DNA from: a virus
Virus record (IMG/VR): IMGVR_UViG_3300026076_000113
Span: 1-64,000 of that record
Reading direction: 5' to 3' (one strand)
DNA length: 64,000 nt
The notes under the pieces are model-generated. The model saw only the letters and a program-made list of their open reading frames with translations. It had not been told where the DNA came from and did no database searches. Positions 5,328-35,526 of the stretch are shown piece by piece (positions within the stretch are counted from its first letter, which is position 1; every line of letters starts with the position of its first letter). The position numbers and the translations under genes were made by a program.

Positions 5328-5365
5328 GTTTTTAACCCCTATAGATGATTCAAATTACCTGAAAT

Positions 5366-5373: not shown

Positions 5374-5413
5374 TCTAGGAGTATTTTGAGTGGGGAAACA
5401 ATGCATGAACACT

Positions 5414-5641
5414 CTACCAGTCTGGATAGTTCTCCACTACAGTACGTTTTTTCTTTCTATTCCTAACCACCCTCTCTACAGTACACAACTTACATTCATA
5501 AGAATATCCAGATGGGTTACCTCTCTTATTTTTTCTTATTAAATAAAAATCATTCATCAAGTCTTTGTCTCTACCACAGACTCGACATGTTCTTTCTCTG
5601 AATAGTAGGTGTTCTAAACCGAACTGTTCATCGAGATCCAT
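5414..5641 (-). CDS. Small zinc-ribbon protein downstream of terminase
   Basis: A 75-residue basic protein with two CxxC pairs, Cys19-Cys22 (CRVC) and Cys50-Cys53 (CKLC), 27 residues apart, which together can bind one zinc ion. The stretch between and after the pairs is rich in Lys and Arg (RKNKRGN and RNRKKKR), so nucleic acid binding is likely. The spacing resembles HNH-type or zinc-ribbon folds, but no HNH histidine-asparagine signature can be recognised, so I do not call it an endonuclease. Its ATG directly follows the terminase stop codon with no gap, which suggests translational coupling and a possible role near DNA packaging. Confidence 0.8.
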   Translation of the reverse strand: MDLDEQFGLEHLLFRERTCRVCGRDKDLMNDFYLIRKNKRGNPSGYSYECKLCTVERVVRNRKKKRTVVENYPDW

Positions 5642-18384: not shown

Positions 18385-18392
18385 TATTTATA
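18385..18392 (-). promoter_or_regulatory. Late promoter octamer between divergent genes
   Basis: The minus strand reads TATAAATA, 31 bases before the start of the 376-residue fibre gene. Its last base is the first base of the hldD start codon on the other strand, so the two opposite genes share a 37-base intergenic space. Confidence 0.7.
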
Positions 18393-19216
18393 TGAAAATT
18401 CTTACTGGATGCAATGGGTTCATTGGAAAGAAATTTGCTGACAAGCTTGATGGAAAGTTCATTGGGTTTGAAATAGGCAACGCCTTTCAGTTACTAGACA
18501 ACATGCCTGTCTGGGATCAGATAGATGAAATCATCCACATGGGAGCAATATCCTCCACAACAGAAACTGATATTGGAAAGATTACAATATACAATACTGA
18601 GTTTTCTATTAAACTATTCAAGAAAGCAATTGAACTAGGTATACCAGTCAAGTATGCTAGTTCAGCATCTGTGTATGGAAACTCAGCAGGTAGTATAAAT
18701 CCTTTGAATTACTATGCTATATCAAAAGTACAAGTAGACTACTGGGTACAAGATAATATTGATAAGTTTAAATCCATTCAGGGATTTAGATTCTTTAATG
18801 TATATGGGGAAGGTGAAGAACATAAAGGAAACCAACGCAGTCCTATCAGCAAATTTGTTTCTGAAGCAAAGATGACAGGTAAGATTAAGATATTTAAACA
18901 CTCTGAGAAAATGGTCAGAGACTTTATATACGTTGGTGATGTAGTTGATCGTGTACTTGATAACACATTGGACTCAGGAATATATGATCTGGGAACAGGA
19001 CATCCACATTCCTTTAGAGATATTGCTGAAATTGTTTCACAAAAATATAATGCAAAGATAGAAGAGATAGACTTCCCAGTACACTTACAAGGAAAGTATC
19101 AATTCTATACATGTGCAGATATGTTCTGGAGTCAGAACTATGAGTTTACTAATGTAGAGGAATATATCAATCGCCCCGAACCACCCGATACGAGTCTTCT
19201 TCAAAGTGTTCGGTAG
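18392..19216 (+). CDS. hldD: ADP-heptose 6-epimerase family protein (HldD-like)
   Basis: A 274-residue NAD(P)-dependent extended short-chain dehydrogenase, close in motifs to HldD, which turns ADP-D-glycero-D-manno-heptose into ADP-L-glycero-D-manno-heptose. Seen: Rossmann motif GCNGFIG at residues 6-12; HMGAISSTTETD at 49-60, matching the HldD-specific SSTTE segment; SSASVYG at 90-96; catalytic Tyr108-x3-Lys112; and GFRFFNVYGEGEEHKGN at 131-147, very HldD-like. It is somewhat shorter than the E. coli enzyme (310). It is the only gene here on the plus strand, has no visible Shine-Dalgarno, and its 3' end overlaps the opposing cupin gene by 50 bases. A related sugar epimerase is the alternative. 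Confidence 0.88.
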   Translation: MKILTGCNGFIGKKFADKLDGKFIGFEIGNAFQLLDNMPVWDQIDEIIHMGAISSTTETDIGKITIYNTEFSIKLFKKAIELGIPVKYASSASVYGNSAGSINPLNYYAISKVQVDYWVQDNIDKFKSIQGFRFFNVYGEGEEHKGNQRSPISKFVSEAKMTGKIKIFKHSEKMVRDFIYVGDVVDRVLDNTLDSGIYDLGTGHPHSFRDIAEIVSQKYNAKIEEIDFPVHLQGKYQFYTCADMFWSQNYEFTNVEEYINRPEPPDTSLLQSVR

Positions 19217-19508
19217 AAAATTCAAATAGTTCTACGTCTGTGATGCCTTCCATCATATGTCTAAGACCAGGAGGTATGTAAAACTTATCTCCTGGTTTTA
19301 ATATTATTGTGTCTGCGTCTATAAAATCATCCCTATAACCATAGGTCATCTTTAGTTCACCACTCTGAACATAGAATGTCTCATCTTTAATCTTGTGGTA
19401 GTGATAGGAACACTTCTTACCTTTATTAAAAAACAGAAGTTTTCCACAATACTTTTCAGTATTGCAGATCCACTTCTCATATCCCCATCCTTTTTGAACT
19501 ATTTTCAT
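19167..19508 (-). CDS. Small cupin, sugar-phosphate isomerase type
   Basis: A 113-residue single-domain cupin. The metal-binding motif 1 reads H36-Y-H38-x4-E43 (SYHYHKIKDETFYVQSGE) and motif 2 supplies His84 (FYIPPGLRH). The N-terminal KGWGYEKWI resembles the C-terminal domain of type II phosphomannose isomerases, which begins with a similar WG.. segment. Proteins of this kind occur in surface polysaccharide clusters, where they isomerise or bind sugar phosphates. The substrate here is unknown; a role replacing the missing sedoheptulose-7-phosphate isomerase would be speculative. It follows the HAD gene by an ATGA overlap and converges on hldD. Confidence 0.82.
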   Translation of the reverse strand: MKIVQKGWGYEKWICNTEKYCGKLLFFNKGKKCSYHYHKIKDETFYVQSGELKMTYGYRDDFIDADTIILKPGDKFYIPPGLRHMMEGITDVELFEFSTEHFEEDSYRVVRGD

Positions 19509-19876
19509 TCTGTTACAACTTGAAAATCACTTTTCCCTGTAAGCCACCACTCATAGTTTCCACCAAAGAAATCATCACATTGAATTCCTTTGTCATCTAC
19601 AAAGTAATCTGCATGCAACTTACCCATATGTAGTTCATCAAATTTAACTCCCCAATCAGTTAACTGTTTAAAAGTTAGATCATAGAATGCTTCATGTGCT
19701 TTGATGGGATCGTTATTAAATCTACCCATACCTCTAGCGGTGTGGAAGATAATTTTGTTACCACCACTCCTCAATTTATTTAATTGTTCGATGCGTCGTT
19801 GCTTAGGGACAGATTTTTCATACTCCCCATTTGTGGTTTCTGCGATAGTACCATCAATATCAATTACGTAAATCAT
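19505..19876 (-). CDS. Short HAD-family phosphatase
   Basis: A 123-residue HAD phosphohydrolase with all motifs: DIDGT with Asp6 and Asp8, FHTAR with Thr46, Lys86 in MGKLHAD, and Asp94-Asp95 in FVDDKG. It lacks a large cap domain, like small HAD enzymes from capsule and LPS loci that begin D.DGT....NG.Y. It overlaps the kinase stop by 17 bases and the cupin by four. In heptose synthesis a HAD phosphatase (GmhB) removes the 7-phosphate from heptose 1,7-bisphosphate; this protein is shorter than GmhB and lacks its obvious zinc cysteines, so it is only a candidate for that step. Confidence 0.85.
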   Translation of the reverse strand: MIYVIDIDGTIAETTNGEYEKSVPKQRRIEQLNKLRSGGNKIIFHTARGMGRFNNDPIKAHEAFYDLTFKQLTDWGVKFDELHMGKLHADYFVDDKGIQCDDFFGGNYEWWLTGKSDFQVVTE

Positions 19877-20699
19877 TTATATCATCTCCTGTAAGAACAT
19901 ATGTACCTTGATTTTGTACTGCTATGGCAGCAGCCTTGTTAGCATACGGTATAGCTTTCTCTATTTTACCATACTCTAGGTAAAAGTAAACTAAAGCAGT
20001 TAGGAAAGTATCACCTGCTCCAGCAACATCGAAGCAAGGAACCTTTTCACCAGGATATATCTTTCCTTTATACTCAGCACCAGCACTACCTTTAGTAACA
20101 ATTTTGTTTCTGTAAATACCTTTCAACTTAGAATCTTCTAATTCATTGATCTTAATGAAGCATCCTTTCTTAGGTAGTTTACTTTTTTTACTGTCTATGA
20201 ATACAGGACCATTAAATTCTTCTACCATTTTAAATATAGTTTCTGTATCTAAGAATCCTTTATCATAATCAGATATGATCATGGCATCAAATGGATCACC
20301 TATTGCTTCTGTATGTACACTACCACTGGGATAGTTAGTACCAGTTGGTAACTCCCATCCATAGTCAGCAACCTCATCATTTTCATCCATCCTCATCAAT
20401 TGTTGATTAGACCTTTCATCTACAAACCTAGTCTTTACTGGTTTTAATTCATTAGTCATAAGATATACATTAACACCAAATGACAAGAGGTTTTGTCTTA
20501 CGTTACTTGCCATTCCTTCTGCTGTTTCAGTGCGAATGTATTCCATTACTGGTACAGGTGCTTCAGGACTTAACCTAGTACACTTACCGTAAACATATTT
20601 GTCTATACAAGTCTCACCTATAACGATGACCTTGTATTGTCTTTGTTGTGGAATATTCTCCGATCCTATCAAAGAACTCAACTTTTTTTGCATACTCAC
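19860..20699 (-). CDS. rfaE1: PfkB-family heptose-7-phosphate kinase (HldE N-domain type)
   Basis: A 279-residue PfkB/ribokinase-fold kinase resembling the N-terminal half of bifunctional HldE, which makes heptose 1,7-bisphosphate. Seen: VIGETCIDKYVYGKCTRLSPEAPVPV at about residues 26-51, as in HldE; AEGMASNVRQNLLSFG with the substrate-loop Asn; KTRFVDERSNQQLMRMD at 89-105; ISDYDKG; NELE; and DVAGAGDTF at 224-232 with catalytic Asp230. The start chosen overlaps the end of the adenylyltransferase gene by 86 bases; Met3 (20693) is equally possible. The separate kinase and transferase genes are a split, order-reversed version of hldE. Confidence in kinase is high, in heptose specificity moderate. 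Confidence 0.88.
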   Translation of the reverse strand: MSMQKKLSSLIGSENIPQQRQYKVIVIGETCIDKYVYGKCTRLSPEAPVPVMEYIRTETAEGMASNVRQNLLSFGVNVYLMTNELKPVKTRFVDERSNQQLMRMDENDEVADYGWELPTGTNYPSGSVHTEAIGDPFDAMIISDYDKGFLDTETIFKMVEEFNGPVFIDSKKSKLPKKGCFIKINELEDSKLKGIYRNKIVTKGSAGAEYKGKIYPGEKVPCFDVAGAGDTFLTALVYFYLEYGKIEKAIPYANKAAAIAVQNQGTYVLTGDDINDLRN

Positions 20700-21009
20700 G
20701 TCCTACTACGTCTCCGTTTTTCCAGTCAGATCCTACTACTAGTATATCAGGGTTTATGGTTTTTATCAAATCTTCAAGCTCTTGTCTTGAATCGAAAGTA
20801 TGGATTACATCCACAGCCTTCAAAGAACGCAATTGATATTCTCTATCTTCCAATGGGTAGATAGGTCTATCTGGTCCTTTATCTGCTCTGACCTTTCGGT
20901 CAGTATCGATACCCACTATAAGCATAGTCCCTAGAGACTTAGCATAGTTTAGTAGTTCAAAATGTCCTCTATGAAGGACATCAAAACATCCATTAACCCA
21001 TATGATCAT
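20614..21009 (-). CDS. rfaE2: Heptose-1-phosphate adenylyltransferase (HldE C-domain type)
   Basis: A 131-residue nucleotidyltransferase. The HIGH-type motif GCFDVLHRGH is at residues 7-16, followed by LGTMLIVGIDTDRKVRADKG and RPIYPLEDREYQLRSLKAVD, all aligned in order with the C-terminal domain of E. coli HldE. The end carries YSTTKTI at 119-125, the counterpart of the STTNII segment of HldE, which argues against glycerol-3-phosphate cytidylyltransferase. The reaction would be transfer of AMP from ATP to heptose 1-phosphate to give ADP-heptose. It begins in an ATGA-type overlap with the oxygenase gene and its last 86 bases are also read in another frame as the kinase N-terminus. Confidence 0.9.
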   Translation of the reverse strand: MIIWVNGCFDVLHRGHFELLNYAKSLGTMLIVGIDTDRKVRADKGPDRPIYPLEDREYQLRSLKAVDVIHTFDSRQELEDLIKTINPDILVVGSDWKNGDVVGREYAKKVEFFDRIGEYSTTKTIQGHRYR

Positions 21010-21641
21010 TTGTACATTTCATAAAGAGATCCATGCATCTGATTTGGATGCTGATTTTGTTTTAGATGCGGTGCATTAATATCAGCACAGAAGAAAGCAG
21101 TTACGATATGCTTTGAATCAGGAGATGAATTACCTTGATGTGAATACAACTGATTGCAAGGGAACATTAAGAGTTTACCTTGTTCAGGAGTACATTTATA
21201 ACCCAACTCTGGAAACTCAGTTTCCCCACCCTGTCTACAATCATCTAAGTATAGTATCATAGCATACAACCTAGACAACAGCAAAGGATCCATTGGAGAT
21301 ATATCAATGTGCTCTCTCATATGACCTTCGTTTGCTGGATAGCATCTGATTGCATGGTCATAAGAAACAAGAGGTGCTCTCCAAAGAAGTTTATCTTTAG
21401 CACCCCATTTATAGAACTCTCTAATAGCACGATCAGTTTCGTGTGCCAACTGACACCAGAAGTCCAAACCTACTACAGGATATACCTGCTTACATTTTTT
21501 ATGTTTTGTATCAACCTCTCCAACACCTACAGCACCTTCTTCATGGAATCGTGTGTTGTGCCAGAACCAATCTTTCCATGCTTCACAATCTTCTGCTGGT
21601 AAGAATCCTTTCTTTTCGAATATAAGATCTGTTAGTTTCAT
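21006..21641 (-). CDS. 2-oxoglutarate/Fe(II) oxygenase, prolyl-4-hydroxylase type
   Basis: A 211-residue enzyme with the facial triad of this superfamily: His111 and Asp113 in REHIDIS, His168 in YSHQGN, and Lys177 as likely 2-oxoglutarate ligand. The segments AMILYLDDCRQGGETEFPEL (128-147) and LLMFPCNQLYSHQG are typical of the prolyl 4-hydroxylase-like branch (DUF-type phage oxygenases). The substrate may be a sugar, protein or lipid; location beside a carbamoyltransferase favours a sugar or glycan hydroxylation that creates a carbamoyl acceptor (inference). It overlaps the carbamoyltransferase stop by ATGA and the adenylyltransferase start by four bases. Confidence 0.88.
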   Translation of the reverse strand: MKLTDLIFEKKGFLPAEDCEAWKDWFWHNTRFHEEGAVGVGEVDTKHKKCKQVYPVVGLDFWCQLAHETDRAIREFYKWGAKDKLLWRAPLVSYDHAIRCYPANEGHMREHIDISPMDPLLLSRLYAMILYLDDCRQGGETEFPELGYKCTPEQGKLLMFPCNQLYSHQGNSSPDSKHIVTAFFCADINAPHLKQNQHPNQMHGSLYEMYK

Positions 21642-23347
21642 AGTATTTGTTTAAGTTCTCTTTTGCTGTATCGTTTAACTGTAGGTTCAATAGTATCTGG
21701 AATAAATATGAGTTCTGATTTTTCTGGTAAGTACAGATAACAGATCTCACTTTCTCTCATAGTTTGTAATGCATCATCTATAGTTTCTACTATAGTATCA
21801 CCAGCTAGATTGAAAGATGTATTGAACAATATAGGTATACCTGTTAATTCATAGAATGCCTCTATTAATTTATAGTAGTTTGGATTCTGATCTTCTGTGA
21901 GGGTTTGAATCCTACATGTACCATCAACATGAGTTATAGAAGGTATCTTTTCTATTACAGATTTCAACACATCTACAGCATACATCATGAATGGTGATTC
22001 ATATAATCGATCCATATTAAACCACTCATGTGCATGGTCAGCAAGTACAGTTCCAGCAAAGGGTCTCCAATGCTCTCGCTTCTTTACTTTATTAACTACA
22101 TCCTTACCATTTGGATCACGAGGATCATATAGTATAGAACGATTACCTAAAGCACGAGGACCATTCTCAGACCTACCTTGACAGATAGCAACTACGTTAC
22201 CTTCACTGATTAGTTCAGCAACTCTTGGAGGTGTAACCTCACATACTCTAAACTCACCTTCCTTTAATTCATAATCATATTTGATAGACTGTCCAAGATA
22301 TACATTATCTAATTTTTTAATTTTCTTTTTCCTAAACAACTTAGGACACTCTCTCGCATATGTTATATACGCTGCACCCATAGCAGTACCACAATCACTA
22401 GACATAGGTTCAACATATAGATTGACATCCTCTGGCAATCTTTGTAACAGTCTATAGTTACCAACACAGTTTAAAGCACACCCACCAGTAAAGATAATAT
22501 TATTACATCCAGTTAAGTGGAGTGTATCCATAACTCTATGGTATACATAATCTTCAAAATCTTTTTGAAGAGCATATGCTAGATCTGCATGTCTGTAAAA
22601 CTTATCATCTTCATCTTTAGAATATGATATGTAATCATAAGGACGTGTTCTAACCATCACATTCTTATGCTCATTATAATCTGCTAAAGCAAATAGATCC
22701 TCATTACCTCCAGCATCAGATATCATTTGTTTTATTCTATCATTGGGTTTCCCATATGAAGAGAGACCCATAGTTTTACCACATTCTAAACTATCCCATC
22801 CCATAAATTCTGTAATACCAGAATAAACAAATCCAGTACCAATACTTTTTACCTTCTCTACAAATGGTGGTGCGTTTTCAACTTTCTGATTTGAATATCC
22901 AATAATCTTTTGACTTAAACATGTTGCTGCATTAGGATCTTCATTGAAATAGAAGATACTCTCATGTTCCTTACCCCACTCATGATCAGCACCAGCACCA
23001 TCTATTACAAGGATACCTGCTTTATCAAATCCTGAATTATAGAACGCACAAGAGGCATGTAGAGAATGGTGGTAATCCTTTGCTTCTACATACCTCTTGA
23101 CTCTGATCCCTATCTTTTTAATGTATTTAAAGTAAGGTCCAAAATCACATTTGGTATTGTATAGATGTGTGTAAGCACATAGATCAATTTCCTTAGTGAA
23201 TTCAGCTACTTTATCCAGAGCATTGAATACTTCTCTGTCATATTTGACATGTGTTAATCGTTCTTCCTGTAAGGACAACACTACCTCATTGTCTTTCATA
23301 AGACATACAGCAGCATCATGAGATCTATTAACACCAAGTATCCACAT
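21638..23347 (-). CDS. O-carbamoyltransferase, NodU/CmcH/TobZ family (copy 1)
   Basis: A 569-residue carbamoyltransferase that would use carbamoyl phosphate and ATP to carbamoylate a hydroxyl. The N-terminal Kae1-like domain begins ILGVNRSHDAAVCL and has the metal-binding HHSLHA at residues 93-98 and VIDGAGADHEWG nearby. The C-terminal YrdC-like half has GRSENGPRALGNRSIL and THVDGTCRIQTL, and FNTSFNLAGDTIVET near the end, all hallmark segments. Length is normal for the family. It shares these motifs but only moderate sequence with copy 2 (23984-25684). It is followed by an oxygenase via ATGA overlap and preceded by another with a two-base gap. Confidence 0.95.
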   Translation of the reverse strand: MWILGVNRSHDAAVCLMKDNEVVLSLQEERLTHVKYDREVFNALDKVAEFTKEIDLCAYTHLYNTKCDFGPYFKYIKKIGIRVKRYVEAKDYHHSLHASCAFYNSGFDKAGILVIDGAGADHEWGKEHESIFYFNEDPNAATCLSQKIIGYSNQKVENAPPFVEKVKSIGTGFVYSGITEFMGWDSLECGKTMGLSSYGKPNDRIKQMISDAGGNEDLFALADYNEHKNVMVRTRPYDYISYSKDEDDKFYRHADLAYALQKDFEDYVYHRVMDTLHLTGCNNIIFTGGCALNCVGNYRLLQRLPEDVNLYVEPMSSDCGTAMGAAYITYARECPKLFRKKKIKKLDNVYLGQSIKYDYELKEGEFRVCEVTPPRVAELISEGNVVAICQGRSENGPRALGNRSILYDPRDPNGKDVVNKVKKREHWRPFAGTVLADHAHEWFNMDRLYESPFMMYAVDVLKSVIEKIPSITHVDGTCRIQTLTEDQNPNYYKLIEAFYELTGIPILFNTSFNLAGDTIVETIDDALQTMRESEICYLYLPEKSELIFIPDTIEPTVKRYSKRELKQIL

Positions 23348-23349
23348 AA

Positions 23350-23991
23350 TTAAACAGGGTTAAAATTTATATTCAATACAATACGTTCGGTTGTGCTCTC
23401 TGGATAGCGAGAGGCATGATATCTTCGACCATCAAATAAAACTAATCTACCTGCTTTAGGTTTCACAGTTTTAGCAACGGTAAAGAGACTGGGGTCATAC
23501 CCATTAATGAACCTCTTGATATTAGGATCTAGAAATTCATTAAAGAAATGTGTATCTCCATCACTATCATTAAGATAATAGATTGCTGTGTACTTCAATC
23601 CATCACCTTGATAATCAACATGTGGTACATGATGAGGTTGTCGGTTCTTGTTCAATGTAAAGAGACCCAATCTTAATTGAACAAGATCCTTGATAGTCAT
23701 ATTAATCTTTTCTTCCATTGAGTATAAAAGAGGAACGAAGATATCATACCACTCAGATTCCTTACCCTCTTTTCCCCAAAGGATGTGCATAAACCCAGTA
23801 AACGAAGCATCCTCAACATCTAACTTAGAGTCATTAAGTTTGTTCTGTTCCCAGTACCACAAAGGTGATGTTATATCACGATTGAAGAACCATGGAAACT
23901 TAGAATCCATAACGGATTGTTTCAGATGCTCCTGATACCTAGCATTAACTACATCATCAATAACTAAGATATCTTCAAAATGATCAGTCAT
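23350..23991 (-). CDS. 2-oxoglutarate/Fe(II) oxygenase, second type
   Basis: A 213-residue oxygenase with triad His124 and Asp126 (PHVDYQG), His192 (RYHASR) and Arg203 as 2-oxoglutarate ligand (TTERIVLNINF). The sequences YTAIYYLNDSDGDTHFF and AGRLVLFDGRRYHAS are typical of small phage and bacterial 2OG oxygenases. It differs clearly from the one at 21006-21641, so the pair is not a recent duplication. It overlaps the copy 2 carbamoyltransferase by eight bases and is two bases from copy 1. Substrate unknown; hydroxylation of a sugar or protein is possible. Confidence 0.9.
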   Translation of the reverse strand: MTDHFEDILVIDDVVNARYQEHLKQSVMDSKFPWFFNRDITSPLWYWEQNKLNDSKLDVEDASFTGFMHILWGKEGKESEWYDIFVPLLYSMEEKINMTIKDLVQLRLGLFTLNKNRQPHHVPHVDYQGDGLKYTAIYYLNDSDGDTHFFNEFLDPNIKRFINGYDPSLFTVAKTVKPKAGRLVLFDGRRYHASRYPESTTERIVLNINFNPV

Positions 23992-25684
23992 CAGACTTGT
24001 TAGGAACCTTGACTAGTTTTTGAATTTCTGGGAGATACATATACTCTATCTCACTACCTTCTAATGTTTCTATCGCATCATGGATAGTTTCAACAAGAGG
24101 TTCGCCTCCAAGATTGAAACTAGTGTTAAAGAGTATAGGTACATCTGTAATCTTATGGAAAGCATTAATGAGTTTATAGTAATGTTCATTTTGTTCCTCA
24201 GTCACAGTTTGTATACGACAAGTTCCATCAACATGAATTACTGACGGAATCTTCTCCTCAACACCTTCAAGACACTCTACAGCATACATCATGTGTGGTG
24301 TTTCATCCCTTCCTTTTAAATCAAACCACTCATGAACATGTTCTTTCTTAATAGAACATGCAAATGGTCTGAACCATTCTCTGTGCTTAACACCATTAAC
24401 AATATCCTTACCATCCTTAACAGTAGGATCAAATAGGATAGAACGGTTACCTAAAGCACGAGGACCACCTTCTGATCTTCCTTGGAAGATAGTAACAATA
24501 TTACCTCCACGAATGAGTGCAGCAACTGAATCATAATCAGTATCTGTTACATCAAGTCCAGCAATGGCATCCTCATAAGTATTAGGATCATACTGAGGAC
24601 CATAGTAAACAGATGCTTGCTTTCTAGGTTCTTCATTATCAGTAAGTTGATGTAACTTATAAAGTGCTCCACCGATAGATGTACCACCATCATGTGAAAT
24701 AGGTTCACAATAGATGTTTAGATCAGGGAAACGATCCCAGTACTTATAGTTTGCAACACAGTTAAGACCATAACCACCACAGACTACAATATTCTTTTCA
24801 CCAGTTATCTCAACTGCTTTCTCAATCAACTGACACATACGTTCAGATGTTTCTTCCTGAATCTTATATGCCATATCCTTCTGGATATCTGTATGATCTA
24901 CAATCTCACCCTGTGGGTGCATCTTATAATCTTCCTTCAATATATCAAATCTATTATGATTGATAGTGGCAGCGTTAGGATATGTTGGAACAATCAAATC
25001 TCTATTACCCCATTCACCATTAAAGAATGATGGTAGATCAGCATTAGGTTTACCATATGGTGCAAGACCCATAAGTTTACCTGCTTCAATAGCAGGGAAC
25101 CCACAATACTGTGTTACTGCTTCATACATTTTAGTATGACCAGGATACTCAGTAATGAATGTATTAGGTTCTGGTTCATGGAAACCAATAGGAGCCTTAG
25201 TTCCTACATGCTTATATACTGATTCAAATTCTTCTGGATACTCTGCATGGAAGATAGTTTCAAATTCATACAAGGTATCTGGAACCTCATTCATTTGTAA
25301 GAAACTTCCAGCACCGTCTGCAATAACACATGCAGCAGATTCAAATCCAGAATTGTAGAAACCACATGCAGCATGCATCTCGTGGTGATTCAAATCAATA
25401 TAAGTTGTTTCGAATGTCCACTTCTTACGTGCAAGTTTTCTTACAAATCCTTCATACATATGCTCACCAGTCCAATCTAAATTAGGACCAGATCTATGTG
25501 TATGACATACAACTAGGTGATCAATATGATCAACATACTCAAATGCTTTAAGTATACCTAGCATAGGTGAACCATCATACTTGAATCTAGTAAGACGTTC
25601 TTCTTCAAGATAGAATACTATCTCACCATCCACCATTAAAGTGGTACTACCATTGTGACCACGAGCGACACATAAAATAATCAT
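23984..25684 (-). CDS. O-carbamoyltransferase, NodU/CmcH/TobZ family (copy 2)
   Basis: A 566-residue relative of the gene at 21638-23347, with the same reaction expected. Motifs: MIILCVARGHNGSTTL at the N-terminus, HHEMHAACGFYNSGF from residue 100, VIADGAGS, KLMGLAPYGKPN, GRSEGGPRALGNRSILFDP, VIHVDGTCRIQTV and FNTSFNLGGEPLVET. All catalytic segments seem intact, so both copies should be active. Two divergent copies in a single phage suggest two acceptor hydroxyls or two sugars. It sits two bases after the heptosyltransferase stop, in the same transcription unit. Confidence 0.95.
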   Translation of the reverse strand: MIILCVARGHNGSTTLMVDGEIVFYLEEERLTRFKYDGSPMLGILKAFEYVDHIDHLVVCHTHRSGPNLDWTGEHMYEGFVRKLARKKWTFETTYIDLNHHEMHAACGFYNSGFESAACVIADGAGSFLQMNEVPDTLYEFETIFHAEYPEEFESVYKHVGTKAPIGFHEPEPNTFITEYPGHTKMYEAVTQYCGFPAIEAGKLMGLAPYGKPNADLPSFFNGEWGNRDLIVPTYPNAATINHNRFDILKEDYKMHPQGEIVDHTDIQKDMAYKIQEETSERMCQLIEKAVEITGEKNIVVCGGYGLNCVANYKYWDRFPDLNIYCEPISHDGGTSIGGALYKLHQLTDNEEPRKQASVYYGPQYDPNTYEDAIAGLDVTDTDYDSVAALIRGGNIVTIFQGRSEGGPRALGNRSILFDPTVKDGKDIVNGVKHREWFRPFACSIKKEHVHEWFDLKGRDETPHMMYAVECLEGVEEKIPSVIHVDGTCRIQTVTEEQNEHYYKLINAFHKITDVPILFNTSFNLGGEPLVETIHDAIETLEGSEIEYMYLPEIQKLVKVPNKSDD

Positions 25685-25686
25685 AA

Positions 25687-26880
25687 TTAACCTTTACCTT
25701 TTAGTACATCAGCAAACCCAGAAGGAACTTTACTTAAAGGTTTGATATCTCCTTGATCAGCCATTAATGCTGGTATTAGATTTGGATTGTTAGACTTGGT
25801 TTGTTTACCACCACCTAGTTGTGGCATAGGCATTCCTTTACCCGAAGCCATTTGTTTTTTGTATTCTTCCTCCATTGCTAGAGTTTGATCAACTGACATT
25901 TGCATTTCATCAGGCAGTCTGATAACTTGATCAGAAGCTTTATAATACTTCTTCATTAGTTTATCAACTTCTTGCATGATAACAGATTCAACCTTATCAT
26001 TCATTGCCATGATACGGTCATTGATTCGGTTGGTGTATTCATCAATAGTAATACGAATAGGATCGTATACTCTCATACCTTCACCCATATCAAGAACACT
26101 AAACTTCTTGTCATCTGGGTAACTGATATTTTCTTTGAATGTAGACCCAACAACTACAACTGCTGGTTTGCCAAATGCTTTAGCAATATGTTGTCCTACA
26201 GAATCACATCCTAAGAATAGATCTGCTGCTTTGATAGCACCAGCAAGTTCCCTTAAAGGTCGTTGTTGTGGATGTGATACAGTATCAGTAAATCCTTCCT
26301 TCTCAAAATCAATTGTTAATTCTGATAGAAGAATAACAGAATATTTTTTCTGTAACTTCTTAATGATACTAATAACATTATTAAATTCGAAACTTCTACC
26401 AGAAGTATCCATGATAATATTACCAGCAGTCTGAACTCCTCTACCAAATGGTTGGAAGACTATGGTTTTCTTTTTCTTAGTTCTTTGACGAACCTCCTCT
26501 ACAATAAAAATTCCAGTGGTTTCTTCTTCTCTAGAAAGTTTAATTGTTGGTGCAGGAAGATCTCTTGGTTCTTTCAAACCATTGATCTCAATATCAAATG
26601 CTTGAGAGAGGTTGCATTTTTGATTATAGTAATGCCAGATTCTATATGGTTCTGGTGTAACTATATCTGTGTGTTTAATCTTGTCTTCGAAAAGATCTTT
26701 ATGCCAGTGATCGTAGCATTTCCTATGTAGAGTAGGGTGACCTTTATAGAAATCTGTACCACCTTCGCAGACAATTACAAAGTCTTCGTCTGGATGGTCT
26801 TCCGCATATTTTTCAAATGCAGGGATAGAGCATAGTACACGTCCAGCTCCACCGTTAATAAAAAACGATTTGGGTCTCAT
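25687..26880 (-). CDS. GT9-like heptosyltransferase
   Basis: A 397-residue glycosyltransferase of the GT-B fold, resembling ADP-heptose:LPS heptosyltransferases (GT9). The N-terminal domain begins FFINGGAGRVLCSIPAFEKY, like the G.GD.l...p.. start of this family. The C-terminal nucleotide-binding domain has AADLFLGCDSVGQHIAKAF at residues 218-236 and GKPAVVVVGSTFKE, matching the usual D[ST]G..H.A.A..kP...LFG.T pattern with Asp226 and His231. After about residue 310 there is an extra Met/Lys/Gly-rich tail of 85 residues not normal for GT9. It is the first gene of the sugar operon, 48 bases behind a late promoter. Donor ADP-heptose is inferred from the neighbours. Confidence 0.82.
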   Translation of the reverse strand: MRPKSFFINGGAGRVLCSIPAFEKYAEDHPDEDFVIVCEGGTDFYKGHPTLHRKCYDHWHKDLFEDKIKHTDIVTPEPYRIWHYYNQKCNLSQAFDIEINGLKEPRDLPAPTIKLSREEETTGIFIVEEVRQRTKKKKTIVFQPFGRGVQTAGNIIMDTSGRSFEFNNVISIIKKLQKKYSVILLSELTIDFEKEGFTDTVSHPQQRPLRELAGAIKAADLFLGCDSVGQHIAKAFGKPAVVVVGSTFKENISYPDDKKFSVLDMGEGMRVYDPIRITIDEYTNRINDRIMAMNDKVESVIMQEVDKLMKKYYKASDQVIRLPDEMQMSVDQTLAMEEEYKKQMASGKGMPMPQLGGGKQTKSNNPNLIPALMADQGDIKPLSKVPSGFADVLKGKG

Positions 26881-26927: not shown

Positions 26928-26935
26928 TATTTATA
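26928..26935 (-). promoter_or_regulatory. Late promoter octamer of the sugar operon
   Basis: The minus strand reads TATAAATA, 48 bases before the heptosyltransferase start and just behind a rho-independent terminator. It would start the transcript of the whole sugar island as a late unit. Confidence 0.7.
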
Positions 26936-26940
26936 CGCAT

Positions 26941-26968
26941 AAAAAAGGACGGATATTACTCCGTCCTT
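26941..26968 (-). terminator. Rho-independent terminator after the 275-residue gene
   Basis: On the minus strand a perfect 9-base-pair stem (AAGGACGGA with TCCGTCCTT, plus-strand positions 26945-26953 and 26960-26968) with a six-base loop is followed by six T residues. It ends the transcript of the gene at 26991-27818, 22 bases after its stop. Confidence 0.9.
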
Positions 26969-27870: not shown

Positions 27871-28767
27871 TTACGGATCAGCGATCTTGTAGTTAATGCG
27901 AACCATACCAGCAGTACCGTTCTGTCCATGACAGCATCCACCACCACAAGTCCAACCAGAAGGACCACCAACTCCAGGAACATAGTTATGTTCTGAGAAG
28001 GATCCACCCCAACCTAATTGAGCAGTTGACCAGTGAAGTAAGCAATAACCACATCCACTGTTTTCGCACTGAACACCAGTCATCCATCCACCCTTGCCGT
28101 TAACAAGACCAGCAGGATAAGGAACATGTTGCTTATTATAGCAATGCTGATTGTAGCAGAACATATAAGCAGCACCAGGAACACCTTTTGCTCCACCGTC
28201 TGCACCATAGAATTCAGCACAGCATCCATAAGGACAACTAGAGAGACACATTGCTCTCCATGTGCAGCAACATAAGAAGCAGCAAGAACATCCAGCACCA
28301 CCACCTTTAGCACAGAAGTTACTTAAACCATAACCTGTGACATAGGATGGGTTACCCATCTGTCCACACTGACTACCTTGTCTACCACAACCAGGAGTTC
28401 CAATATGAATATCATAAACACAACCAGCTAGAGAAGCACCTGTAAGACGTTTCCATGCATATGCACCAGCACCAGCAGGAATACCTCTAGAGCAGCAGCA
28501 AGATGAACCACCGCCTCCACCAGCACCCCAGACTTCAAAGATAACATCACAAACATTATCAGGAATACACCACTGAGGATACCTATAGTAGTTGTAACTT
28601 GTAGAGTGATCTTGACAAGTAGAACCACAATGAGGTGTAAAGTACTGAGTACAATACCCAGCAGCAGGTAACCTTGCTAGTTTTGTCGTCGCATCAGGAT
28701 CAGATAACCCCGATAGCGAATCTGTTGTAACGAATCCTAATAGATCTCGTAAATTAGTATTTGGCAT
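27871..28767 (-). CDS. Cysteine/glycine-rich fibre-tip-like protein, paralogue 1
   Basis: A 298-residue protein with about 30 cysteines (10%) and very many glycines. It shares an architecture with the two genes upstream: N-terminal NLRDLLG; WCIP then FEVWGAGGGGGSSCCC at residues 77-92; GLSNFCAKGGGAGCSCC in the middle; PYPAGLVNGKGGWMT; and a C-terminal TCGGGCCHG...MVRINY. The F.(V/L)WG.GGGGG plus G.(V/I)RI.Y pattern is that of glycine-rich receptor-binding domains at phage fibre tips. The cysteines could bind metal or form disulfides after release. Start is supported by an AGGA ribosome site. Function as adhesin is inference. Confidence 0.85.
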   Translation of the reverse strand: MPNTNLRDLLGFVTTDSLSGLSDPDATTKLARLPAAGYCTQYFTPHCGSTCQDHSTSYNYYRYPQWCIPDNVCDVIFEVWGAGGGGGSSCCCSRGIPAGAGAYAWKRLTGASLAGCVYDIHIGTPGCGRQGSQCGQMGNPSYVTGYGLSNFCAKGGGAGCSCCFLCCCTWRAMCLSSCPYGCCAEFYGADGGAKGVPGAAYMFCYNQHCYNKQHVPYPAGLVNGKGGWMTGVQCENSGCGYCLLHWSTAQLGWGGSFSEHNYVPGVGGPSGWTCGGGCCHGQNGTAGMVRINYKIADP

Positions 28768-28790
28768 CTCTAGTTCCTAGTCCTCAGTAT

Positions 28791-29732
28791 TTAGTTAAAG
28801 TAGAACCACGCACAGTCATCGTTGGATGTATCCGACTTCAACCAGCATGAGCAGTATGTAAGTCTGATTAGACCACCGCCTCCACGCCATCCGTAGCAGC
28901 ATCCACCGCCACATGCAGTAGCAGAAGGAGAACCAACTCCAGGAAGTCCTGGACCTCCATTACAGTTGATGTTGTACGCCCAAGGAGTGTTTCCTGTGCA
29001 GTACATATATTCATGGATACATGCATTACCATGATAGTTTTGAGTGATCCATCCACCTTTCTCATTAATAAGACCAGCAGGATAGGCCATTGCACCCTTA
29101 GCCCAACAGTTGTTTTGGTTACAAGAGTTATAGAAGAAACCTGGTCTTCCTTTAATCATCTCATCTCCACCATAGGAGCATGCTCCATCACAGTGTAGAT
29201 ACCATCCACCACATCCTCCCCAAGAGACTTTATCCTTACATCTGTAAGTTGAATCCCAGAAAGCCCAGCAACATGTTTTGCCAGGTAGTCCACCATCAGC
29301 ACAGAGGTTACTTAAGTTGCAACCACCGACCCATGTCTTACATCCTCTAATACCGCAGCAGCAGCGTGAGCAGCATGTAGGAGAAGCAACACAGAGTTGG
29401 TAACACCAACCACCTTGTACCAGTGGGTATTCAAGAGTTTTTCTGACATATCCACCAGCACCACCAGGCATACCCTGTTGACAGCAACAAGCACCACCGC
29501 CTGAACCGCCTCCACCCCATAACTCGAAAGTTAATTGAGTAGTACCACAAGGAACGCACCAGTACTGAATACAATAGTTTCTGTAATTATTATCACAGTT
29601 ACCTTGGTTACAGTAAGGGTGGAACATGAAGACCCTTCCTTCATGGTTCCTTTCTAAAGCAGATGAAGCTGCTATAGTTTCATCTATAGTTGAAGCGAAC
29701 TCTCTTCCTAATAGTTCTCTGAGATTTGCCAT
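28791..29732 (-). CDS. Cysteine/glycine-rich fibre-tip-like protein, paralogue 2
   Basis: A 313-residue member of the tandem family with about 35 cysteines (11%). Seen in order: NLRELLG, YWCVPCG, FELWGGGGSGGGACCC at residues 69-84, SPTCCSRCCCGIRGC near 117-131, NLSNLCADGGLPGKTCC, AYPAGLINEKGGWIT, and ACGGGCCYGWRGGGGLIRLTY. It differs from paralogue 1 in a C-terminal extension rich in Ser and Asp with four further aromatic residues. No signal peptide or catalytic motif is visible. It lies 23 bases upstream of paralogue 1 (in transcription order before it) and five bases after paralogue 3, so the three are probably translated from one message. Confidence 0.85.
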   Translation of the reverse strand: MANLRELLGREFASTIDETIAASSALERNHEGRVFMFHPYCNQGNCDNNYRNYCIQYWCVPCGTTQLTFELWGGGGSGGGACCCQQGMPGGAGGYVRKTLEYPLVQGGWCYQLCVASPTCCSRCCCGIRGCKTWVGGCNLSNLCADGGLPGKTCCWAFWDSTYRCKDKVSWGGCGGWYLHCDGACSYGGDEMIKGRPGFFYNSCNQNNCWAKGAMAYPAGLINEKGGWITQNYHGNACIHEYMYCTGNTPWAYNINCNGGPGLPGVGSPSATACGGGCCYGWRGGGGLIRLTYCSCWLKSDTSNDDCAWFYFN

Positions 29733-29737
29733 CGATT

Positions 29738-30664
29738 TTAACCCTTACAGAATATAGTGACTCTGACAAGACCGTGAGCACCCTCAGAGGAGCAGCAGCA
29801 ACCGCCACCAAACACCTGAGCAGACACACCACCCGATCCTACTGGACCGTTTCTCCAGCAGTCGCCAGAAAGACCACCGTTGTTTCCACTTAACCATAAT
29901 GTAGCTCGTCTTCCACAAGATGCCATATCAGGCTTTCTCATAGAGTGATGAACACCATATCGAGCACCGTACATAGGTGCTGTAGGATGATAGTCCTTCT
30001 TCATGCACCAGTTACCGCAACCAGGGTTGCAATCATAATGAATGTATGGTGAAAGACCGTTCCAATACCATTTACCAGCAGCTTCGCAAGAATCCATACA
30101 ATCACTACTTTCTAGTGTGTAATGTTCTGTTTGCTGTCTGCAACATGCAGGACCACACTGGTGTATCCTTGTCCTACAAGCGAAGTATGAATCTACCCAG
30201 TGGCAACAGTTCCATCCGTGACAACCACCACAAGCACAGAAGTCGCTTAAACCTGGACCAGAAACATATGACTTACAACCGTCGTAACCACCTCTGGATG
30301 GGTGTCTACATGTACCACCTGCGACACATATATCGTAACAACAGTTATCTAATTGGGAAACTCCTTGAACAGCAGCACAGACAGTACATGATTGATACTG
30401 ACCTGAGAAACCATTCCAAGCGATAGTACAGCAGCAAGTACCAGATCCACCGCCGCCTCCTCCCCAGAGTTCGAACTTGACTTTACAAACGCAGCAATTA
30501 GGAACGCACCACCTTATACGTTGCCAGTCATAGTTGTAAGAACTACCATGTTCCCAACAGTGACTACCCCTATAGTATAGTTGATGTTGACCCCCACCCA
30601 TATATGTTTGTATGGGTACTACATTAGCGTCAGGTACATCTAATAAATCTCGTAAACTTGACAT
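29738..30664 (-). CDS. Cysteine/glycine-rich fibre-tip-like protein, paralogue 3
   Basis: A 308-residue family member with about 35 cysteines, including CC pairs and CCC runs. Seen: SLRDLLD, RWCVPNCCVCKVKFELWGG at residues 51-69, GGGGSGTCCC, GLSDFCACGGCHGWNCC, and a C-terminal FGGGCCCSSEGAHGLVRVT. It lacks the PAGL.N.KGGW block found in the other two but has MASCGRRATLWLSGNNGGLSG in its place, so it is the most divergent copy. His and Trp are also frequent, which would suit metal binding as well as receptor contact. First of the three in transcription order. Confidence 0.85.
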   Translation of the reverse strand: MSSLRDLLDVPDANVVPIQTYMGGGQHQLYYRGSHCWEHGSSYNYDWQRIRWCVPNCCVCKVKFELWGGGGGGSGTCCCTIAWNGFSGQYQSCTVCAAVQGVSQLDNCCYDICVAGGTCRHPSRGGYDGCKSYVSGPGLSDFCACGGCHGWNCCHWVDSYFACRTRIHQCGPACCRQQTEHYTLESSDCMDSCEAAGKWYWNGLSPYIHYDCNPGCGNWCMKKDYHPTAPMYGARYGVHHSMRKPDMASCGRRATLWLSGNNGGLSGDCWRNGPVGSGGVSAQVFGGGCCCSSEGAHGLVRVTIFCKG

Positions 30665-31431: not shown

Positions 31432-34400
31432 TCAAACTGACCCTGCCCAGAAGACGTATCCTTTAGTTGTACGTGTACTATCAATGTATGTCTTAACAGC
31501 ACGTTGAGTAGGAACTTTTTGGTTTGAGTTAGCAGAAAGAGTAACGTCAGAAGAGAATTCTGTGATACTTTCTCCTAACTGAGCACCAATAGAACCCAGT
31601 CTCAAGGATGATAGACCCGAAAGGTCAAAGGAGGATGCGTTCAATGTAGTTGAACCAGTTGCCTGGTTGACCTTGAAGTAACGTCCAACTGTGAAGTTAC
31701 CGTCTTGGTCTGTTGATACAAAGAATACACGTCCTGGGAAGTCTTCAGTAACTTCGTTGCCTGGTGCTGGATCCACTAATGGATCTCCAGGCCAGTTGGT
31801 GTTTAGTTTGTTTCCTGTACCTAAGTCTAGGAAGTCATGACCAGTTAGACGAACCTGACTGTAACCATATCTGATTTTATAGTCTTGTCCATCGAAGGTT
31901 CTTGTAGGTTTCTCAGCAGCAAGAACAACTAGTGCAGTACCAGTTGTATCTGTCTGTGCGTTTGTCACCTGCATGAACTCATTATCAATCTTGATGTAGT
32001 CGTTGATATTGAAACCAGAAGCATCAGTAATACGGACATCTGATTGAGAGTTATTAATATCTCTCAAAGTATCTGTCTGATCGACAACCTTGATTTCAAG
32101 AGCACGAACTGAATCGCCACTGGTATGAGCAGTAGCATTTGTGCCTTCAACTCCACGAGTAACATCCATAGATGTTGCTGTTGGGAATGAAGTAATTGCC
32201 ATCATCTCATCATTGATGATTAGATATGCTCCGATTGAGAATCCACTAATTGTGTTAACGTAGATTGTAGTATCAGCAGCACTGTTGACAGCAGAACTCA
32301 AGTTAGTTGCTCCACCATACTGATATCTGGTAATTAATTCCAAACCATCATGTGCAGCAGCAGCACTACCTAGTAGTCCTCTAGTTACAGTCAAGTTACC
32401 TCTTCCAGCAGGAGCTGTGTATGAAGAGTTAGCAATAACGAATGTGAATGGTTCTTCACCAAGTCCACCAGCACCTGTAACGAATTCCATTGAACCACCT
32501 GGAACAGGAGCAGATCCTCTACCAGTTATGGCAAGTACGAATCCATTCTGACCACCAAGTGCATCACTGTTGTTGAGTAGTTGTCCTTGAACTCCAGAAG
32601 TTTGTCCATCAATTACTTCATTCTGTACAAAACTTCCTTTGAAAGGTCTGAAGAGTATCTTAGATACACCAGCCTGTACAGAGATAATTTCTCCAACAGC
32701 ACCAGATGTCAATCCGATAACTCTCTCACCATTCAACCAAATTCCATCGGTTGCTCCAGGTACAATGGTTGACTCATCATATTGAAGAGATAGACCATCG
32801 ATCTTACCATCAAGAGTTGTTTCTGTAGTGTCATAACCAGAAGAAACAATACCGTATGTACCCCAAGAACTGTTACCAGCAAGAGATCTGATTCTTCCAC
32901 CTCTGGTTGAAGCATAAGAAACGTGACAGTAGTATGTGAAGCATGATACAATCTCAGCACCAGCTTTATTTGTACACCAGAAACCAACTCCACCGTCTTC
33001 GTGGATTTGTGTCCAAGAGTCAAACACCATTGTTTTGTTTGATCTGTTATCAAACGTAACGGCGTTAGAAGCAGCAGATACAAATGTGTGTGCGTACTGA
33101 TCACCAACAGCAGCAACACCTACGTTAACTGTAATTGTTGATGTAGAAGCAGCAACAATTATAAGTTCCTTACCGAAGGCAGGGTCAGATACACGTGGAT
33201 ATGCATGGTTAGTAGCACCACCATCTTTAGTACAATTGAATGTAATAGATGCTTGTGATAATGTAATACTTGATCCAGTAGTCAATCCATGACCTGAACC
33301 AAGAGTAAGTTCCATGTCACCAGTAGAAGGATTATATGTAGCACCAGTTGGTGTAAACTGTGCTGTAGTATCCCACTTCTCATGAACATCACCATCAATA
33401 ACAGCACCAACTCCAGTTGCACCGAAGCAAGAACAGTTTGATACGTAAGGTGATCTCTTAATTGGTGAGTTAGGATCTAGACGTACATAAACACCACCGA
33501 TTGTAGCAGTGTTAAGATCTTTAGGATCAGAACCTGAAGGAACGAAACCATTCATTCCATCCATAACCATGTCCTTAAGCATAGTGGTGCTTCCTAGCAT
33601 CCACATAGTTAAATGCTCGTTCATGATTGGAGTAACACCACTGATAGCGATATCTGTAGCACCAGCTTCATATGTGTCTGAAGTTGTCCAAAGGTTAGCA
33701 TTAGCATCTCTAGTGACACTTCCTAATCCAGAAGTTAAACCAGTTGTTGCAACTGTAACCAATGTTTGAAGAGCAGCATCCTGTACAACGCAAGTTACGT
33801 TAGCACTAATGCTATTAATATCTGTAATAGTATTGTTAATAACCTGTGTCAATCCATGAGTACCAACAACAGTAACACTATCGTTATTGATAACGTCTTT
33901 TGCAATAGGAGTTAAGTATCCTAGAATAGAAACAACTTCTGCTTCGTTACCGTTCCAATAGTTAGCAGTAATCCAGTCATCAACTGTGTCATAAACACGG
34001 TCGTTACCACCATAACCTAAGTTAGCAGTGATATCCTGAATAAGAGTAGCAAGTTTGCTCTCAAATACAGAAGCATCTCCACCAGGAGGGTTAGTAATAG
34101 TAACACCACCAGCAGCAGCTTGTGCAAGAGTTTCCTTAACAACGAACTGTGTGTTAGATGTTAATAGGTTGTATGCGTCAGCAGTTTTGTTGTTAGCAAA
34201 TCCATCGGTCTGAACATAAATGTCAGAACCACCTTCTCTAACGTCAATAACTTCACCAGTCTTACTTCCATCACCAGATGTGATAGTAGAACCAAGAACT
34301 CTATACTGAGAGTCAGGTACTTGTGCAAGTGTAAGTTTAACAACACTTGAAGGTTCACCAGCTCTTGCTTGAATCTTAGAAGTTCTTAGGTTATCACCAA

Positions 34401-35526
34401 CGATACCTACATTTGGTGGAACCCTCATTGGAAGGATTTCGTTATATGTACCTGCTTTAACATAGATTGTTGCAGGACCAGTTACGCTATCTACAGCGTG
34501 ACGTACAGTTCTCCATGCTGCTGTAATGCTATTACCAGCATTTGTATCAGCACCTTCTGGAGTAACATAATAAACTTTGTGTGTAACGTGACTCTCTTTC
34601 CATGATGGATATCCTGTTGAGTCAACAGTTAAAACTTTATTCTCTGTACCAATAGGCAACCTAGCAGGACCAGAACCACCTTGATAAAGAACGTCACCAG
34701 ATGTGGTCAGAACGTTGGCAGACGCTCCTTCTGCTAGTGAATTCCAGTATGTACCATTAACGTCTGTCTCTGGTGCATTACCTGTGTTTTCAGTAACACA
34801 AATATGTGAGTTACTATTTCTAGTAACAGCATCACCTGGATAATAAGTTGTACCTACATCCCAAGTACCTTTCCAAGTGAAACCTCCAACAATGAAGTCC
34901 CAATCAGAAGCATTGCTTGATGGAGATTTGTTAATGTTAGTTGTCTTAGCAACGTATGAGTTACCACCTAAAAGAACAACATCACCTGGTTTATATGTTG
35001 TGGTAGAATTCCAATTACCTACAACCTTGAAACCTGTGGTTAAGATGTCCCATTGAACACCAATACCATTATTAGGTGCGATAGCAGTACTTGTTGTTTT
35101 TGCAACGTAAGTATAACCACCATATGTTACGATATCACCGACTTGATATTCAGTTGCTGAATCCCAAGTATCTTCAAACTTGAGTCCATCCAAGTAGGCA
35201 GAAAACTTAGCAGGATCGAAAGTTGAAGTCGATGTATGAGGTGTAGTAGTTCTATAAAGTACGTTACCGTATTTTGCGATATCGTTATTCTTATAGAAGG
35301 TAGCTGCAGCCCAGTCACCTGTATTGTAAATCCCTTCAGTATGAAGTGACCAACTTCCAGCGTCAGTTCCGTACCATTGTGCTGCTGACGAAACCGATGT
35401 GTGGTTTGCGGTAGCAACGTAAGTGTTAGCACCAAATTTAACAATGTCATCAATGACATAAGCGGTTGCAGCCGCCCAGTCACCTCTCCAGTTAAATTTT
35501 AGTCTGCCAAGTCTAAAATCTGCCAT
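31432..35526 (-). CDS. Fibre or tailspike with carbohydrate-binding-like repeats and beta-helix
   Basis: A 1364-residue protein. Residues 1 to about 260 contain five copies of a 50-residue module W......Y..(G/D)D(I/V)V..G...YVA.......P, much like chitin/cellulose-binding modules (CBM5/12-like) used for sugar contact. Around residues 320-400 a stretch GADTNAGNSITAAWRTVRHA and IYVKAGTYNEILPMRVP is typical of pectate-lyase-like beta-helix proteins. The rest is beta-rich with G.SGA.G segments. The end (TQRAVKTYIDS) is a common phage fibre C-terminus. Together a sugar-binding tailspike; depolymerase activity is possible but no catalytic residues can be identified by eye. An AAGGA ribosome site precedes the ATG. 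Confidence 0.85.
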   Translation of the reverse strand: MADFRLGRLKFNWRGDWAAATAYVIDDIVKFGANTYVATANHTSVSSAAQWYGTDAGSWSLHTEGIYNTGDWAAATFYKNNDIAKYGNVLYRTTTPHTSTSTFDPAKFSAYLDGLKFEDTWDSATEYQVGDIVTYGGYTYVAKTTSTAIAPNNGIGVQWDILTTGFKVVGNWNSTTTYKPGDVVLLGGNSYVAKTTNINKSPSSNASDWDFIVGGFTWKGTWDVGTTYYPGDAVTRNSNSHICVTENTGNAPETDVNGTYWNSLAEGASANVLTTSGDVLYQGGSGPARLPIGTENKVLTVDSTGYPSWKESHVTHKVYYVTPEGADTNAGNSITAAWRTVRHAVDSVTGPATIYVKAGTYNEILPMRVPPNVGIVGDNLRTSKIQARAGEPSSVVKLTLAQVPDSQYRVLGSTITSGDGSKTGEVIDVREGGSDIYVQTDGFANNKTADAYNLLTSNTQFVVKETLAQAAAGGVTITNPPGGDASVFESKLATLIQDITANLGYGGNDRVYDTVDDWITANYWNGNEAEVVSILGYLTPIAKDVINNDSVTVVGTHGLTQVINNTITDINSISANVTCVVQDAALQTLVTVATTGLTSGLGSVTRDANANLWTTSDTYEAGATDIAISGVTPIMNEHLTMWMLGSTTMLKDMVMDGMNGFVPSGSDPKDLNTATIGGVYVRLDPNSPIKRSPYVSNCSCFGATGVGAVIDGDVHEKWDTTAQFTPTGATYNPSTGDMELTLGSGHGLTTGSSITLSQASITFNCTKDGGATNHAYPRVSDPAFGKELIIVAASTSTITVNVGVAAVGDQYAHTFVSAASNAVTFDNRSNKTMVFDSWTQIHEDGGVGFWCTNKAGAEIVSCFTYYCHVSYASTRGGRIRSLAGNSSWGTYGIVSSGYDTTETTLDGKIDGLSLQYDESTIVPGATDGIWLNGERVIGLTSGAVGEIISVQAGVSKILFRPFKGSFVQNEVIDGQTSGVQGQLLNNSDALGGQNGFVLAITGRGSAPVPGGSMEFVTGAGGLGEEPFTFVIANSSYTAPAGRGNLTVTRGLLGSAAAAHDGLELITRYQYGGATNLSSAVNSAADTTIYVNTISGFSIGAYLIINDEMMAITSFPTATSMDVTRGVEGTNATAHTSGDSVRALEIKVVDQTDTLRDINNSQSDVRITDASGFNINDYIKIDNEFMQVTNAQTDTTGTALVVLAAEKPTRTFDGQDYKIRYGYSQVRLTGHDFLDLGTGNKLNTNWPGDPLVDPAPGNEVTEDFPGRVFFVSTDQDGNFTVGRYFKVNQATGSTTLNASSFDLSGLSSLRLGSIGAQLGESITEFSSDVTLSANSNQKVPTQRAVKTYIDSTRTTKGYVFWAGSV

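Follow-up and report, generated by a model that had tools for sequence, protein, structure and literature searches.

The 64,000-nucleotide stretch analyzed here (the window) makes up most of a 71,902-base IMG/VR record, IMGVR_UViG_3300026076_000113, which represents an incomplete virus. Open reading frame listing and profile scans revealed ten carbohydrate-modifying genes between positions 18392 and 26880, within the tail/fiber block of a cyanomyovirus (Table 1). Nine of them, on the minus strand, form one tightly packed array running from a glycosyltransferase gene (26880) down to a cupin gene (19167), and the tenth, coding for an HldD-like epimerase, lies on the plus strand and converges with the cupin gene. 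The initial annotation of this DNA had described a heptose-carbamoylation island of nine contiguous genes embedded among virion genes. All the functions that it named are encoded where it had placed them, but the genes number ten and the epimerase gene is on the opposite strand. The virion setting holds, as the island is flanked by a tail-fiber gene (phrog_11338; 17224-18354) on one side and a gene of the structural block (phrog_9740; 26991-27818) on the other. The island is real, conserved and chemically coherent, and its predicted activity is the modification of predicted virion acceptors with a carbamoylated heptose.

Table 1 Features of the island and its surroundings, with the evidence for each assignment
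Feature	Position	Strand	Evidence
HldD-like ADP-heptose 6-epimerase, compact, 274 aa	18392..19216	+	TIGR02197, E. coli HldD 1eq2
Cupin, proposed non-homologous replacement of GmhA (sedoheptulose-7-phosphate isomerase)	19167..19508	-	Fold model, co-location
HAD phosphatase, EcbF/BcbF-like, proposed GmhB equivalent	19505..19876	-	TIGR01689, 9iqw, 1xpj
Heptose-7-phosphate kinase, PfkB, compact HldE domain I	19860..20699	-	HldA 4e84, TIGR02198
Heptose-1-phosphate adenylyltransferase (AT), HldE domain II	20614..21009	-	TIGR02199
2-Oxoglutarate (2OG)-Fe(II) oxygenase, accessory	21006..21641	-	PF13640 2.5e-9
O-Carbamoyltransferase 1, NodU/TobZ type, accessory copy	21638..23347	-	PF16861, PF02543, 7xb6
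2OG-Fe(II) oxygenase, accessory	23350..23991	-	PF13640 1.2e-7
O-Carbamoyltransferase 2, invariant transferase partner	23984..25684	-	PF16861 8e-59
GT9-fold glycosyltransferase, phrog_8954, proposed heptosyltransferase	25687..26880	-	AlphaFold2 model and Foldseek
T4-type late promoter motif TATAAATA of the transferase-to-cupin array	26928..26935	-	
Terminator-like hairpin and T-run, setting off the upstream transcription unit	26941..26966	-	Sequence inspection
Three tandem Cys/Gly-rich proteins, candidate acceptors	27871..30664	-	phrog_4205, PF21722
Tail fiber with four CBM5/12 stretches, alternative acceptor	31432..35526	-	phrog_9851, PF02839 4.1e-17

Profile comparisons argue strongly for assigning the kinase, AT and epimerase to ADP-heptose synthesis, in line with the chemistry first proposed, as their nearest matches are HldA, HldE and HldD. 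A profile of 22 kinases found HldA (4e84) as its best match in the PDB (E-value of 4.2e-41, the next protein being at 7.5e-12), and the GAGD motif is invariant in the family. The window kinase itself matched TIGR02198 (1.4e-37) with a score below the NCBIfam equivalog cut-off; its conserved domain begins near 20639, and a GTG start at 20699 would give a long overlap with the AT gene. For the AT, TIGR02199 (3.6e-33) outscored the glycerol-3-phosphate cytidylyltransferase family, and its HxGH motif is conserved; the STTR5 motif of heptose nucleotidyltransferases that are promiscuous for nucleoside triphosphates was not found in the window AT. The epimerase matched TIGR02197 (2.2e-58) with 197.9 bits, under the curated cut-off of 274.6, and HldD ranked first among solved structures (E. 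coli HldD 1eq2, 3.1e-33).

A second group of viral contigs has another arrangement, in which kinase and AT are fused into one HldE-like protein (NF008454, 1.7e-109), with HldD and the cupin next in the operon, which is located between neck-like and virion genes. The kinase-AT fusion was seen in L093 and L094, a GmhB-like phosphatase is also present in L110, L112 and L115 of this group, and a family search found HldE elsewhere in the contig for most of contigs L060 to L083. Two differently organized gene sets, each accompanied by this transferase and carbamoyltransferase, thus indicate ADP-heptose. A Nudix gene beside HldE was dropped as a candidate pathway member, since Pseudomonas jumbo phages too have an annotated Nudix gene next to that tail gene. 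In the sister arrangement, L071 encodes a protein between transferase and carbamoyltransferase (10954-11778) and, after them, a methyltransferase (13574-14209), which may indicate further sugar tailoring. In a contig of a metagenome-assembled genome (MAG; L095), split transketolase halves (4690-5774) lie upstream of AT, kinase, HAD and cupin genes and could supply sedoheptulose-7-phosphate. Genes for AT, cupin, kinase, epimerase and HAD were also found in a contig binned as a Bifidobacterium breve MAG (L101), a binning that looks doubtful.

No island gene matched GmhA (TIGR00441) in the profile scan of the window proteins, nor did a search of 12 related phage records, which include complete genomes with the kinase but not the record of the window, give a match. 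A census covered 46 kinase loci flanked on each side by 5 kb or more. All 46 include the AT and 45 the cupin; the HAD phosphatase was found in 34, the epimerase in 33. The nearest folds to the cupin model (pLDDT of 92) are D-lyxose/D-mannose ketol-isomerases, with phosphomannose isomerases among the top matches, and the residues of its metal site, H36, H38, E43 and H84 (His-x-His/Glu/His), are invariant. In cyanophages Bellamy and SynMITS9220M01, the same cupin is found between an HddA-type GHMP kinase (7.2e-83 and 3e-85, respectively) and an HddC-like nucleotidyltransferase. This locus looks like a GDP-heptose route, with an unrelated kinase and nucleotidyltransferase. Since isomerization is, besides the phosphatase reaction, the step common to the ADP- and GDP-heptose routes, the cupin is a candidate for the isomerase. 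In SynMITS9220M01, a second HddA-like kinase has a weak GmhA-like protein as its neighbor, and the presence of the cupin in contexts devoid of sugar genes argues against an isomerase role. On the strength of the fold model and co-location, our judgment tips slightly toward the cupin being an isomerase that acts on sedoheptulose-7-phosphate in place of GmhA. It would then be a new kind of enzyme catalyzing the initial step in heptose synthesis.

The HAD phosphatase (TIGR01689, 4.9e-12; 9iqw, 1.2e-18; 1xpj, 6.5e-13) belongs to an EcbF/BcbF-like family and not to GmhB. Strict mutual exclusion between GmhB and this HAD was considered and abandoned, as marine virus AG-345-O18 carries both; in that contig (L130) the transferase, carbamoyltransferase and GmhB-like genes are adjacent, and the HAD set is located elsewhere. 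The names given to these proteins in many cyanophage records (L003 to L011) are misleading, the HAD appearing as "phosphoheptose isomerase" and the cupin as "cysteine dioxygenase" or "nucleotidyltransferase."

The transferase has a weak GT9 family match (18.7 bits versus a Pfam cut-off of 22; NCBIfam TIGR02201, 4e-6), and its profile yielded nothing of use against PDB sequences. A Foldseek search with its AlphaFold2 model (pLDDT of 78, low in the C-terminal tail) gave WaaF (1psw, 2.6e-10) as the best match, followed by the GT9 protein 3tov, TibC (4rap/4rb4, 1.3e-9) and WaaC. The protein had been annotated as GT9-like; the structure model supports a GT-B fold nearest to WaaC/WaaF, but it is not a canonical GT9 enzyme, as alignment with E. 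coli WaaF and WaaC places Arg14 at the position of their invariant catalytic Asp13. Arg14 is invariant in 26 phage sequences, and an Arg is also present in a Vibrio phage homologue. Here the protein truly departs from the GT9 family, and this is the weakest point of the heptosyltransferase assignment. In TibC, Asp110, located by superposition with WaaC, is the proposed catalytic base, and the alanine mutant is inactive (PMC4358343). Because the catalytic Asp is replaced by Arg across the whole phage family, either a different base may serve in heptose transfer, or the sugar donor may be another one. The Vibrio homologue, a distant one (29%), is encoded by schitovirus SBP1 (L128:7001-7735), alone between tail genes and with no heptose synthesis genes nearby; similar matches were found in about 30 Vibrio phages.

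Carbamoyltransferase 1 matched PF16861 (5.3e-60), PF02543 (2.8e-26) and 7xb6 (2.6e-52), the Carbam_trans_N and Carbam_trans_C domains of NodU/TobZ-type enzymes both being well over the Pfam cut-offs. Carbamoyltransferase 2 accompanies the transferase in 77 of 80 contigs, and the other three end at the transferase. The earlier view that heptose and carbamoyl transfer belong together chemically is upheld. By analogy, the carbamoyl group may be attached at 7-O of the heptose. The oxygenase encoded at 21006-21641 is missing from many relatives.

Upstream of the transferase gene, the three tandem proteins contain 10 to 11% Cys and 15 to 18% Gly. We defined Cys/Gly-rich proteins as having at least 180 residues, at least 4% Cys and at least 10% Gly. 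At least one such protein was present in 67/67 transferase loci with enough upstream sequence and in 0/7 control phage loci. Conversely, searches starting from the Cys/Gly-rich proteins found the transferase in 65/65 loci with room for it, on the opposite strand in three (L198, L206 and L208). In both directions the queries were built from linked loci and the best 80 matches were kept, so the exclusivity of the linkage could be overstated. We regard the Cys/Gly-rich proteins as adhesin-like and as candidate glycan acceptors, and their one-to-one linkage with the transferase strengthens the initial preference for decoration of the phage's own proteins over a change in the host envelope. Among named phages, the distribution of the full-length CBM-bearing fiber nearly coincides with that of the transferase, and S-BM3 has a truncated fiber and no island. 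Cys-linked glycosylation is speculation only, as the Vibrio phage homologue has the Arg but no Cys/Gly-rich neighbor.

Twelve exact TATAAATA motifs, all on the minus strand, were found in the window, with 4.85 expected by chance over both strands. One of them lies 47 nt 5′ of the transferase gene, after the terminator-like hairpin. The nearest relatives retain this exact motif, and in more distant ones variants such as CTAAATA were seen by eye; the hairpin is similar in relatives. The strand and position of these motifs support late promoter control, as proposed at the outset. A late-promoter motif for the fiber gene, at 18385-18392, overlaps the start codon of the plus-strand epimerase gene. 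Pairwise comparisons gave dN/dS values of 0.02 to 0.27 for all ten genes where estimable, indicating purifying selection on each of them.

The initial annotation had proposed a search for the same gene set in other marine phages. The core gene order recurs in S-CAM1, S-CAM3, P-SSM2, S-SSM7 and Sf-FS3, adjoining tail-fiber or neck genes, and in dozens of viral contigs, a conservation far beyond chance. By a count of listed rows, 31 cyanophage-type records have the kinase; all of these, and four more, have the cupin. A close island-bearing relative of 202,519 bases (L024, G023) encodes a psbA/psbD-family protein, consistent with a cyanobacterial host. Cyanobacterial lipopolysaccharide (LPS) is reported to be devoid of heptose and 3-deoxy-D-manno-octulosonic acid (KDO) in a review (PMC4390846). 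Strong matches to the AT domain of HldE (>100 bits) were found in only 5 of 151 host-family genomes, whose completeness is unreported, and GmhA-type matches in 38. One of the five is a Prochlorococcus single-cell genome with a related cupin on a phage-like contig. The review and the rarity of strong HldE matches support the earlier claim that heptose would be foreign to such hosts.

We propose that the island is a self-sufficient sugar-modification cassette for the heptosylation and carbamoylation of virion adhesins, a reading that we consider slightly more probable than not. The cupin would convert sedoheptulose-7-phosphate to heptose-7-phosphate, which the PfkB kinase would phosphorylate; the HAD protein would remove the C7 phosphate, the AT would produce ADP-D,D-heptose, and the plus-strand epimerase would convert it to ADP-L,D-heptose. 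Late in infection, the GT-B protein would attach the heptose, while still in the cytoplasm, to a protein product of the phage tail/adhesin block, the likeliest acceptors being the tandem Cys/Gly-rich proteins or the CBM-bearing fiber. One or both carbamoyltransferases would O-carbamoylate the sugar, and the 2OG oxygenases and a second carbamoyltransferase would provide accessory tailoring. A more specific version, in which the Cys/Gly-rich adhesins are modified by an Arg-for-Asp GT9-fold enzyme fed by a complete phage pathway with the cupin replacing GmhA, would amount to a new virion glycosylation; as a whole we regard it as tentative and rather doubtful.

In addition to the Arg14 substitution and the design of the linkage searches, several points weigh against decoration of virion proteins. 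The kinase, AT and epimerase scores are all under the curated equivalog cut-offs, and because of this we infer the exact specificity of the window proteins rather than assign it. The Cys/Gly-rich proteins are putative virion components. In the region read, Pelagibacter phage Mosig has a fiber homologue with neither transferase nor Cys/Gly-rich proteins, which weakens the fiber as sole acceptor. Lastly, WaaC and WaaF act in the cytoplasm too, so location leaves a lipid acceptor possible.

The foremost alternative is an action of the cassette on the host envelope late in infection, e.g., the addition of carbamoyl-heptose to LPS, which would block superinfection or aid release. The literature treats these genes as LPS genes (PMC3037559), enzymes of the WaaC/WaaF kind modify lipid A precursors, and 29 of the 46 kinase loci have no fiber-linked transferase within the flanks searched. 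In S-SM2, P-TIM68, S-T4 and Sf-CH8, moreover, kinase, AT, HAD and cupin genes are part of large glycosyltransferase clusters without that transferase and far from fiber genes. In contrast, none of the ten island proteins has a clear membrane segment, and the window-type array includes no recognizable flippase, ligase or polymerase. This array has its own late promoter, and its linkage to Cys/Gly-rich genes is maintained even where the transferase pair is inverted. The reported lack of heptose and KDO in the cyanobacterial LPS core also argues against an envelope target, which we consider unlikely, though by no means negligible. A defense function was rejected, as PADLOC gave no match for the five proteins tried.

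Alternatively, the enzymes may have diverged in specificity, such that the activated sugar is a related sugar phosphate product rather than manno-heptose. The scores under equivalog cut-offs, the compactness of the enzymes, the Asp-to-Arg change in the transferase and the other contexts of the cupin family are compatible with this. However, HldA leads the kinase-profile matches with an E-value some 29 orders of magnitude lower than the next, HldD is the best for the epimerase, and the sister arrangement has a canonical HldE fusion and GmhB. In commentaries on Tang et al. 2024 (PMC11461863, PMC11573728), viral heptose enzymes are reported to make ADP-heptose in vitro. We consider a different sugar quite improbable. 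That the island is non-functional filler DNA for headful packaging, a possibility raised by Sullivan 2010 for LPS genes of larger cyanophage genomes (PMC3037559), is very hard to reconcile with the low dN/dS values, conserved gene order, catalytic motifs intact in most enzymes and late promoter.

The initial annotation had considered the pathway possibly undescribed. This does not hold, as the gene set is already published: Sullivan 2010 (PMC3037559) listed T4-GC 304, 305, 307 and 308 of P-SSM2, S-SM2 and S-SSM7 as co-occurring LPS genes, with T4-GC 303 as a carbamoyltransferase, and raised the question of whether the LPS genes are functional. Heptose genes were also part of the published description of SynMITS9220M01 (PMC7378029). 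In the open-access literature we found no paper tying these genes to virion glycosylation. The same commentaries state that the phosphatase was not found in viruses, and one calls the role of viral heptose enzymes unsolved (PMC11573728). With its candidate acceptors, transferase and late promoter, the island offers a concrete, testable answer. If the proposed decoration is correct, ocean cyanophages add to their receptor-binding structures a sugar beyond the synthetic capacity of most of their hosts, with a bearing on host range and adsorption.

Compared with the bacterial ADP-heptose pathway (GmhA, HldE, GmhB and HldD), the kinase, AT and epimerase are alike by profile and nearest solved structure, whereas in the island kinase and AT are split, compact and in reverse order, GmhA is absent, and an EcbF-like HAD takes the place of GmhB. 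The carbamoyltransferases share both Pfam domains with NodU/TobZ O-carbamoyltransferases, but the phage enzyme is paired with a GT9-fold protein. The transferase has the GT-B fold of WaaC and WaaF, with an alignable C-terminal nucleotide-binding half; in contrast to them, all members of the phage family have Arg14 for the catalytic Asp13 and are linked to virion genes. Its fold also matches the bacterial autotransporter heptosyltransferases (BAHT) TibC and Aah, with which it would share an adhesin protein acceptor. Unlike these enzymes (BAHT features from PMC4358343), it begins with a Rossmann strand, lacks the N-terminal beta-barrel and catalytic Asp, and has no invariant Cys set such as their Cys4 iron finger. 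Another close system is that of the cyanophage "LPS gene" clusters (T4-GC 302-308; P-SSM2, S-SSM7 and S-SM2), which consist of the same families and, in P-SSM2 and S-SSM7, adjoin structural genes. Relative to their treatment by Sullivan 2010, where a fiber-block acceptor and the cupin and HAD steps are absent, what is new here is the linkage, the likely acceptors and the cupin as a candidate new isomerase.

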